A stretch of DNA of 64,000 nucleotides from Candidatus Babelota bacterium (lineage in GTDB: Bacteria > Babelota > Babeliae > Babelales > Babelaceae): contig JABDCP010000001.1 in the NCBI GenBank assembly GCA_013288045.1, positions 75,736 through 139,735 on the forward strand. The letters are read 5' to 3'. The notes beneath the pieces are model-generated. The model ran no database searches. It was not told the DNA's origin and was given only the letters and a program-made list of their open reading frames with translations. The translations under genes and the position numbers were made by a program. Below are positions 60,098-64,000 of the stretch, one piece after another; within the stretch, counting starts at the first letter, position 1, and every line of letters begins with the position of its first letter.

Positions 60098-60129
60098 ATC
60101 TTTGGTTGCATGACTTAAGGAAAAAAAAT

Positions 60130-62286
60130 ATGGCGATACGCGTATATGAATTGTCGAAGAAGTTAGGCCTTACCAATAAAGAGCTTATAGATCTTTTGAA
60201 GGAGCATGGCTATTCTTTGGCAAGTATTGCCTTGGTACCGCCAGAAGCACAGGCTCTCGCAGAAAAGCTGATGGCAAAGGGAAGTCCTAAAGTCCAAAAG
60301 CCGCTGAGCAAAGAACCTGCTTCTCAAAAAGAACAACCCAAGATCGAATCTCCTAAGATGGAGTCTGTGGAGCAGCCAAAAGAACAGGCTAAAAAAGCTA
60401 TCGTTAAAAAAGTAGAAGCTTCTCAGGCACCAGCTCAAAAAGTTTCTCTAGAAAAAAAAGCTCCACAAAAACCTAGCCAACCAACTGTACAGGCTAAACC
60501 GACTGTCCAAAAAGCAGCAGCGCCTGTAATTCAAAAGAAAGTTATTGAGCAGCCTGAAACCAAGAAATCTGGATTGGAGCCGGGAACTGCATATGATGCG
60601 CCGATGACGGTAGGAGATTTTGCTGCAGCAGCAGGAGTTCCTGTAAGCGAAATTATTATTGCTCTTCTCAAGAAAGGTATTGCAGCACCGGTGACTCAGC
60701 TTTTGCCTGAAACAACAATTAGAGACCTTGCTACCTTGCATGGTCTTACTTTGGTAAAAAAAGAGACAGCACGGCAATCAAAAGAGATGCCCTTAGTTTC
60801 TCAAGAGGCTGCTGGAGAATGGAAAGAAAGATTGCCTATAGTAGTTGTGATAGGACATGTGGACCATGGTAAAACTACTCTGCTAGACTTTATTCGTAAG
60901 ACACGCGTAGCCTCACGTGAAAAAGGGGGCATAACGCAACATGTAGGGGCGTATGATGTTAAGACGAAACAGGGTGGAGTTATTTTTCTCGATACACCCG
61001 GCCATGAAGCTTTCTCATTAATACGTGTACGTGGAATTAAAGTGGCCGACATTGCAATTCTTATTGTAGCTGCAGATGACGGTATCATGCCTCAAACAGA
61101 AGAGGCGATTAATGCAGCTAAAGCAGCCGGCATTCCTATGGTTGTAGCGATTAACAAGATAGATAAAGCATCTCCTGCTCAAGTAGAAGCGGTTAAAAGT
61201 CAACTTGCGCGCCATAACTTGGTTCCTGAAGAATGGGGTGGGCAAACTATTGTCATGCCGATTTCAGCAAAAACGGGACAAGGTGTAGATGAGCTTCTTG
61301 ATGTGCTGGTGCTCCAGTCTCAAGTTATGGATCTTAAGGCGAATGTTACGGTTCCAGCGCGCGGCTATATCTTAGAATCAAAATTTGAAAAGGGCCGAGG
61401 CCCAGTAGCCACAGTTATTTGTCAGCATGGTGTTCTTAAGGTCGGCGATTATTTTATTGCTGGTGAAGCAACGGGGCGTGTAAGTTCTCTTGTTACCTCT
61501 GATGGTAAAAGGGTACAAAAAGTAGGACCTTCGGTGCCTGTGCAAGTTGCAGGATTTTCGGAGCTTCCTCATTCGGGGGATCTATTTGAGGTACATACGT
61601 CAAAAGTTATTAAAAAAGGTATTCCTGCTGCTCAGCAGCGGGCTGACCTATTGCTGCGCAAAGCTGGTGCTTCTCGAGAAGCAGATATCGATATTATCCT
61701 CAAAACTGATAATGTGTCATCGCGTGAGGCAGTTGCAGCATCTCTTTCCCGTCTAACTTCTAAACATGGTGCTATTTCAATTATTCAGTCTGGCGTAGGG
61801 GATATTACTGAAAGTGATGTTATGCTTGCAGCCGATACAGGAGCCTATATTTATGGGTTCGGAGTAAAAGTGCAACCTAATGCCATGGATCTTGTGCACA
61901 AAAAAGGTGTCGTCATTAAAACCTTCGATATCATCTATAAGCTGATAGAAGAAGTTGAGGCGCTCTTAGAATCAGGCAAACCTGTTGAAATGGTTACCAA
62001 GAAAATTGGTGAAGCAACAGTACTCAAGGTATTTGATATTAAGAATCTTGGTGTTATTGCGGGTTCTATTGTACGTGAAGGTCGCTTTACACGTAATGGC
62101 AAGGTAAAGGTGTACCGCGGTAAGGAAAAGATTGGTGAAGGCCCTATTAAGAGTCTCCAACGTGAAAAGAAAGCAGTGAAGGAAGTTCACTCGGGATTTG
62201 AATGTGGTTTCATGATTGAAGGGTTTAGTGATTTTGAGCCCGATGATCGTGTAGAATGCTACGAAGAAGTTCCCGTAACAAAATAG
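60130..62286 (+). CDS. infB: Translation initiation factor IF-2
   Basis: IF2_N domain, [32 protein letters not shown]. Confidence 0.97.
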
Positions 62287-62471: not shown

Positions 62472-62712
62472 TCTTTTTGTTGTTGCAGCGTGTGCTCTAA
62501 AACTAACTGTTGTTTTTTGTGCTCTATTACTAGAAACTTAGAATTGCTTTGATAGCGTGTAGCTTTAATAACTATCTTTCTCTCCCTTCAATAGTTATTA
62601 AACTTCCTCTAGAGAAGCTGCTTGTAAGAAAGTGTTAGTTAAAGACTCGTACGTTAAAATTATTCTACAATTCCTTCTTAGCTATTTAACGGGTCTTTAA
62701 CTACACGATCTT
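62472..62712 (+). ncRNA. Candidate structured RNA element, copy 1
   Basis: TAATAACTAT(62566-62575)/ATAGTTATTA(62591-62600); AGTTAAAGAC(62637-62646)/GTCTTTAACT(62693-62702); CGTTAAA(62652-62658)/TTTAACG(62685-62691). Homologous to copies 2 and 3. Boundaries approximate. Confidence 0.65.
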
Positions 62713-62930
62713 AAAGTATCAGACACCTCACTGTATTTTCCACCCATTTAGATATAGCTCTTCTTTATACCGGTGCCTCTACAACCGATAAAATTTTTTA
62801 TGTACATGTTGTGCATCTCTAGACCGTTTTACTATCGAAGTATTGCCCTTTTCGATCTATCATCATTCATACATGAAAGATCTGTGAATTCACCGCGTTT
62901 GAACATAAGTCCCGCTTCGCTTTTAAAAAA

Positions 62931-62972
62931 AGCTCCGTTCACTCAATTGATGTCAATTCATCCAAACGGGCT
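62931..62972. repeat. Intergenic hairpin AGC(T)CCGTT ... AACGGGCT with inner ATTGA/TCAAT stem
   Basis: 8-bp stem with one bulged T, enclosing ATTGA-TG-TCAAT. Confidence 0.5.
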
Positions 62973-63308
62973 TAAATGGCATTGATTAAAACCTTGTGGA
63001 CGACAAAAGGCCCCATTAAAATGGCATAGAATCTGCAATCATATAAAGCTCTTATAGAATGAAATTGTCAGATGATGTTCATTCTGAAGGCTCCCCCTTC
63101 AACTTTTCTGCATCTTGATTGTTTATGTACTATGCATTTCTTAATATCCTGGATATACGGCAATGCATCGTTGGGGAATTTTGGATCTGCATTACTTAAG
63201 TCTTAAGAGAATTGTGCAGATTTTTCTGCAGCAACATGGCGTTGTTAAGAGGTTGTTTTATGCAAAAAACACTCCGAAGGACAAAAATGCACGCAGTTAC
63301 CAACCTTT

Positions 63309-63545
63309 TTATGTTGTTGCTTGACGATGCGGGAACTAAACTGTTGTTTTTTAGGCAAAATTCGTAGAAACTTAGAATTGCTTCCTAGTTAGTGTAGCTT
63401 TAATAACTATCTTTCTCTCCCTTCAATAGTTATTAGACTTTCTATATAGTGAGGCACTGCTTGTAAGAAAGTGTTAGTTAAGGACTCGTAATGTATACTA
63501 CAATTCCTTCTTAGCTATTTGCGGGTCTTTAACTATCACGATCTT
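63309..63545 (+). ncRNA. Candidate structured RNA element, copy 2
   Basis: TAATAACTAT(63401-63410)/ATAGTTATTA(63426-63435); AGTTAAGGACTCGTAA(63476-63491)/TTGCGGGTCTTTAACT(63519-63534), 16 bp with three G.U pairs. Boundaries approximate. Confidence 0.65.
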
Positions 63546-63818
63546 TTAGTCCCATCTCTTTTTCACCCCATAATCTCATCCTATTTTCAAAGTTGCCTTA
63601 GAAAAAATGCTTTCATGTGAGAGATTTCTTTAGGCCAAGCATCTTCCTCTTTTGAGATATGGAAACAACCCTAAAGACTGTTGCTCCAAGTGATGTTAAA
63701 AAACAGCCAGATATACCCTGACCCTTTCAATTTGAAAATTTTAGCGACGCCCCAGCTGCTTATTGTTTCAGTGAAGAGAAAGCGCGCGAAGCGCATCTTG
63801 TTGCTTTGTGGTTGCCTT

Positions 63819-63841
63819 TAAAATAAAAATACGTTATTTTA
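63819..63841. repeat. Perfect 8-bp hairpin TAAAATAA-N7-TTATTTTA
   Basis: Located between element copies 2 and 3. Confidence 0.5.
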
Positions 63842-63859
63842 GAAATAGTCGCCTGGAAA

Positions 63860-64000
63860 TAGCAGTTTTTGTGTTGTTTTATAATGTTGCGCAAGGCAAA
63901 CTGTTGTTTTTTAGGCAAAATTCGTAGAAACTTAGAATTGCTTCCTAGTTAGTGTAGCTTTAATAACTATCTTTCTCTCCCTTCAATAGTTATTAGACTT
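63860..64000 (+). ncRNA. Candidate structured RNA element, copy 3 (truncated by window end)
   Basis: From 63898 onward nearly identical to copy 2 (AACTGTTGTTTTTTAGGCAAAATTCGTAGAAACTTAGAATTGCTTCCTAGTTAGTGTAGCTTTAATAACTAT...). Confidence 0.65.

Follow-up and report, generated by a model that had tools for sequence, protein, structure and literature searches.

The window analysed here is a stretch of 64,000 nucleotides from the genome of a Candidatus Babelota bacterium (G000, 1.04 Mb, 67% complete), and it ends in a tandem array of an intergenic element that we call RNA-A. RNA-A is a real structured small RNA gene of the Dependentiae/TM6 phylum, previously undescribed, and the pairing of one of its loops with the 5' terminus of another, unlinked locus, named RNA-B, is strongly supported by the way in which the two sequences have changed together. 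We propose that RNA-A is probably a trans-acting antisense RNA which masks the ribosome-binding site of RNA-B. TM6/Dependentiae (Babelota) are obligate intracellular bacteria of protists, and our literature search found no small RNA reported in Dependentiae; a deeply conserved antisense pair offers a concrete entry point to gene control for this hard-to-culture phylum. Furthermore, compensatory change between two unlinked genes represents unusually clean genome-only evidence of RNA-RNA pairing, and the retention of a translation start where no protein is conserved poses a puzzle open to direct testing.

A structured RNA family of the phylum

The first-pass annotation of the window had noted three similar intergenic copies, the complete ones with two hairpins each, and had taken them for a candidate new multicopy structured RNA family. 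The three copies are present, at 62530-62715, 63364-63548 and 63924-64000, the last one truncated by the end of the window. RNA-A is predicted to be a stand-alone structured RNA of about 160-190 nt formed by two hairpins, in agreement with that description. In copy 1, hairpin 1 (62564..62602, plus strand) is a helix of 12 bp, TTTAATAACTAT / ATAGTTATTAAA, around a 15-nt CU-rich loop, CTTTCTCTCCCTTCA, and hairpin 2 (62626..62712, plus strand) is a long helix enclosing a conserved loop, loop 2 (CTACAATTCCTTCTTAGCT, 62665..62683, plus strand), the putative antisense to the RNA-B 5' end. The same loop is located at 63498..63516 on the plus strand in copy 2.

The analysis of 30 sequences demonstrates that the helix of hairpin 2 is paired at 91.6%, against 38-51% for slid versions; 15 of its 16 pairs are changed on both sides and none of 500 shuffles was as good on any measure. 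Over the whole two-hairpin structure 33 sequences give two-sided changes at 38 of 39 pairs, a count biased toward the model to which the alignment was fitted. Across the families GUAUGGUUAGAAGCACUGCUU is conserved between the hairpins together with CUACARUUCCUUCUUAGCU in loop 2. Strict conservation throughout the phylum belongs to loop 2, whereas that of the CU-rich loop in hairpin 1, noticed in the first-pass annotation, does not extend beyond the genus.

A covariance model, R1, built from eight copies of three species of the window's genus, gave matches in other genera of the family (17 genomes of the family searched) and in 32 of 113 genomes in an order-wide search, and a second model, R2, built from the 3' domain of RNA-A in 30 sequences, matched 44 of the 113; within family f20 it matched 29 of 31 genomes. 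The order-wide and phylum-wide model searches covered the same 113 genomes, all of them within the phylum. Homologues are found in about 50 of these genomes, usually one per genome. Tandem copies occur only in the window's genus, where the term multicopy is correct; elsewhere the family is normally single-copy.

No Rfam 15 family matches the window at the gathering threshold, and with a relaxed E-value the array and 12 loci of relatives gave chance-level matches only. Together with the homologues that the covariance models recovered across the order, and with a covariation far above both controls, this bears out the claim of a new family. ARAGORN detected neither a tRNA nor a tmRNA in the window. 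The 6S RNA model (RF00013) found nothing in the 113 genomes, an absence that is weak evidence because the model recovers only 5 of 14 controls, and one could imagine RNA-A to be a strongly diverged version of the 6S RNA that is missing, or of some other housekeeping RNA. We consider this very improbable: RNA-A itself is not matched by the 6S model and is unmatched in Rfam even at the relaxed threshold, its shape is that of two separate hairpins, unlike 6S RNA, which forms a single long rod opened by a large bubble at its centre, and separate signal recognition particle, tmRNA and RNase P RNAs have been reported in Babela massiliensis (PMC4378268).

In relatives across families the gene order, established by tblastn and lists of open reading frames, is infB-(glycosyltransferase family 4 gene)-RNA-A-nfo, and nfo adjoins RNA-A at every homologous locus checked. 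The tandem repetition in the window's genus might recall the decayed remains of a gene or of a mobile element, an alternative that the first-pass annotation had itself raised. This explanation retains next to no probability, as it is refuted by position and covariation in an element that is syntenic, usually single-copy and in which no conserved open reading frame was seen.

Some variants of the RNA were also observed. In genus g2 (G003-G005; L132, L134) the nfo-linked RNA carries CUCCUUCU in the loop of hairpin 1, and its loop 2 is short, reading UUAUCUUCUACAAA in G004 (L111/L136).

An unlinked partner that changes in step

The reverse complement of loop 2 was sought by a pattern search that tolerated up to 3 mismatches, and most of the 15 genomes searched contain, beyond RNA-A, one further strong match. 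All of these additional matches belong to a single orthologous locus, which lies 3' of a gene of the S4/pseudouridine-synthase kind (rluD type) and in nearly all cases faces a PLD-family gene; the locus between the rluD-type and PLD genes was named RNA-B. With a 27-nt pattern, again with up to 3 mismatches, RNA-B was found in 41 of the 113 genomes. In the alignment a promoter, made of CTTGCTTTTTT and TAGCAT with about 17 nt between them, is followed no more than a few bases later by (C)GAGCUAAGAAGGAAUUGUAGUAAUGAAGC, beyond which the sequences are unrelated. GAGCUAAGAAGGAAUUGUAGUAAUGAAGC is a Shine-Dalgarno sequence plus a start codon, and the conserved part of RNA-B amounts to 27 nucleotides. 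The Shine-Dalgarno sequence is of the AAGGA type and lies about 9 nt 5' of the start codon, which is AUG in 37 of 41 aligned sequences and GUG in the other 4, with UG invariant. The transcript would be short, beginning near GAGCUAAG.

Loop 2 is complementary to the 5' end of RNA-B over 18-23 nt. The 18-nt core duplex, compared in the 38 genomes that have both genes, comprises 646 Watson-Crick pairs, 32 G-U wobbles, 1 C-A and 5 other mismatches, and at five of its positions both sides have changed (A-U to G-C, or U-A to C-G), the two genes being unlinked. As the same 18-20 bp are found at two loci per genome, the motif might instead be a DNA-level element, such as a protein-binding or recombination site. 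This is highly implausible, since a mere shared DNA motif should show C-A differences about as frequently as G-U, whereas those between the loci are nearly all compatible with wobble pairing; moreover one copy forms the loop that a covarying helix closes, and the other lies directly 3' of a promoter.

The co-variation of the two strands also allowed a forecast. In G018 and G022 RNA-B reads GAAUCGUGG, so that their loop 2, missed by both R1 and R2, should carry CGAUU. A pattern search located hairpins with UCACGAUUUUUUCUUAGC in G018 and CGCGAUUCCUUCUUAGC in G022, as forecast, and a hairpin of G017 likewise contains UACGAUUCUUUCUUAGC; all three adjoin nfo. In G007 the RNA-A loop and the RNA-B strand are shortened in step. 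RNA-A thus combines a conserved RNA structure with complementarity to an unlinked locus kept by compensatory change, as a trans-acting antisense small RNA does.

A pairing in cis was considered as well: a pseudoknot between the leader (GAAUUG) and the loop (CAAUUC) of RNA-A fits two species and fails in G001, and was rejected, the loop being better explained by RNA-B. As a separate observation, many RNA-B loci (e.g. L234, L255, L259, L268) can fold on themselves by pairing of the 5' GAGCUAAGAA with a downstream UUCUUAGCUC, which imitates the RNA-A loop and hides the Shine-Dalgarno sequence; in G091 (L259) a U-run follows this fold, which resembles a terminator.

Proposed mechanism and its alternatives

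In the mechanism that we propose, RNA-A would consist of hairpin 1 and the invariant GUAUGGUUAGAAGCACUGCUU, followed by a long hairpin displaying a loop of roughly 20 nt, and RNA-B would be a second small transcript, driven by a strong promoter at another place in the chromosome. The RNA-A loop would pair in trans with the RNA-B 5' end, leading to a duplex that would cover the Shine-Dalgarno sequence and stop one or two bases short of the start codon. The main effect would be to block ribosome loading on RNA-B, with both RNAs perhaps marked for decay, and in the window's genus the tandem array would increase the dosage of RNA-A. We infer from the sequences that both RNAs are transcribed and pair in the cell, and also which of the two regulates the other. 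Since the frame of RNA-B is not conserved, the regulated entity is probably not a peptide but RNA-B itself, as an RNA that binds ribosomes or pairs; it may act as RNA either as a sponge for RNA-A or as a transcript whose translation per se matters.

Several observations weigh against this mechanism or limit its support. The frames of RNA-B vary in length from 3 codons to 29 or more, bear no resemblance to each other even in sister species and do not exceed another frame in length. On these grounds RNA-B was rejected as a peptide gene, and the lack of a conserved frame would be odd in a target of translational control. RNA-B was not found in the window genome, which is 67% complete; it was found in both sister species, and the RNA-B 5' end of the window species is predicted to read GCUAAGAAGGAAUUGUAG or a wobble variant of it. 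Duplex energies do favour the pairing, with a mean of -33.8 kcal/mol for RNA-A and RNA-B of the same genome vs -31.0 kcal/mol when partners are exchanged among genomes, a result that not one of 20,000 permutations equalled, but this test ignores relatedness, which inflates its significance, so that the individual compensatory changes carry more weight. Finally, RNA-A in G027, G045 and G080 (L286, L284, L285) keeps GUAUGGUU..CUGCU and the long hairpin without the antisense loop. The search with the 27-nt pattern did not detect RNA-B in these three genomes, so the absence is coupled, and the module that is kept there without loop and without detected partner suggests that RNA-A may have a further function independent of RNA-B.

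The reverse direction of control is somewhat unlikely. RNA-B would then be a sponge that mimics a ribosome-binding site and sequesters RNA-A, which would work via its GUAUGGUUAGAAGCACUGCUU module or on other messages. The lack of a conserved open reading frame in RNA-B, the small extent of its conserved part, which barely exceeds the 5' pairing region, and the retention of GUAUGGUU..CUGCU in RNAs that have lost the loop would all be compatible with such a role. Nevertheless the start codon is held as AUG/GUG despite its position outside the loop-2 duplex, and no third locus strongly complementary to loop 2 above control was found in the 15 genomes searched. A Caulobacter small-RNA sponge is reportedly an example of one small RNA limiting another by pairing. 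Here too two small RNAs would pair, but RNA-B differs from such sponges in carrying a Shine-Dalgarno sequence and a start codon.

The masking of the RNA-B ribosome-binding site by RNA-A would resemble the action of trans-encoded small RNAs that cover ribosome-binding sites, in which a structured RNA exposes an unpaired C/U-rich stretch against the Shine-Dalgarno region of another transcript. RNA-A is unlike them in its near-perfect complementarity of 18-23 bp to one partner, in the phylum-wide co-evolution of the pair and in a partner without a conserved protein. With the antisense RNAs of type I toxin-antitoxin systems and of plasmid copy control, which are usually encoded opposite or beside their target, it shares a long stem-loop whose loop pairs with the target leader with high complementarity. 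RNA-A and RNA-B, by contrast, are unlinked, and RNA-B encodes no small conserved toxic peptide of the kind found in type I targets.

A toxin could also be an RNA. In CreT RNA toxins (PMC8501985) a small RNA with a Shine-Dalgarno sequence, an AUG/GUG start and a mini-open reading frame acts without a meaningful peptide. RNA-B would be comparable if it harmed the cell by capturing ribosomes or tRNA, through efficient initiation on a meaningless mini-frame, with RNA-A as the silencer, and its strong promoter, Shine-Dalgarno sequence, AUG/GUG start and short unconserved frame would fit a CreT-like RNA. We regard such an RNA-only pair of toxin/antitoxin type as quite improbable: the loci are unlinked and vertically inherited, and RNA-B lacks the consecutive rare codons that follow the start in CreT, only AUG AAG C being common to the RNA-B sequences. 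RNA-B also differs from CreT in its partner, an antisense RNA and not a CRISPR guide.

The loop of RNA-A on hairpins of two apparently related phage contigs would also agree with a toxin pair. In the IMG/VR contigs L235:6345-6362 (+) and L236:1173-1190 (-) the loop-2 sequence is present in intergenic hairpins, with 25 nt, CTACAGTTCCTTCTTAGCTCAAATT, common to both. One of the contigs encodes a terminase and an Erf-like annealing protein, and in the other a similar Erf-like reading frame was recognised by eye. The collection holds five viral matches to loop 2, one of them inside a coding region, and a few 18-mer matches are estimated by chance; it is unlikely that two contigs would share 25 nt in this way. 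The hairpins are apparently phage-encoded mimics of the antisense loop, and if the two phages infect Dependentiae they would carry their own anti-RNA-B RNA. RNA-B itself gave chance-level matches only in phage and plasmid records, and none was found in viral contigs. The occurrence of TGGTTAGAAGCACTGCT in one viral contig was discarded as a candidate, the remainder of the RNA-A element being absent.

A broader proposal, which we find unlikely as a whole, is that of a phylum-wide module made of a two-hairpin antisense RNA and an unlinked RNA that is translated but not coding, co-evolved since early Dependentiae, with phages carrying their own antisense hairpin in order to interfere. Such a circuit would consist of RNA only and might serve as a switch for phage defence or of toxin-antitoxin type, in bacteria that have very few protein regulators; for one member of the phylum only 5 transcription regulators are predicted (PMC4378268).

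The tandem array in the window

The copies of RNA-A, all on the plus strand, are arrayed between infB, encoding translation initiation factor IF-2 (60106..62286, plus strand, from the list of open reading frames), which is the upstream neighbour and a conserved genomic anchor, and the convergent nfo gene (endonuclease IV) just beyond the window end. Copy 1 (G000:C1:138265-138450) matches the covariance model with 168 bits and copy 2 with 207 bits. The first-pass annotation had described the copies as alike and the sequence between them as unrelated. Both points hold: the identity is 82% between copies 1 and 2, 93% between copy 2 and the copy just past the window, and 42% between the spacers, as compared with 39-43% for shuffled spacers, so that the conserved unit is the element and not anything larger.

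A scaffold gap of 100 N inside the array (G000:C1:139736-139835) marks the end of the window and cuts copy 3; only its 5' part lies in the window, and the sequence resumes past the gap at G000:C1:139836-140051. The 95 nt located 5' of the gap are identical to the 95 nt located 3' of it. This identity looks like an unmerged contig overlap, an assembly artefact of repeats, in which the apparent copies 3 and 4 would be a single copy, and the array most likely comprises exactly three copies.

Upstream of copy 1, a T-rich region with TTGTTGTTGC and TGTTGTTTTTT boxes (62478..62530, plus strand) is the probable promoter region, as judged from a comparison of 28 upstream regions. The boxes TTTTTGTTGTTGC(TTTTTT) and TGTTGTTTTTT recur upstream of RNA-A across families, in the window at 62478-62530 and 63300-63364 and in most relatives, and are possible promoter or activator sites; the RNA-A leader AGAAACUUAGAAUUG may likewise be promoter and not RNA. 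These boxes are reminiscent of the -35 box of RNA-B, TTGCTTTTTT.
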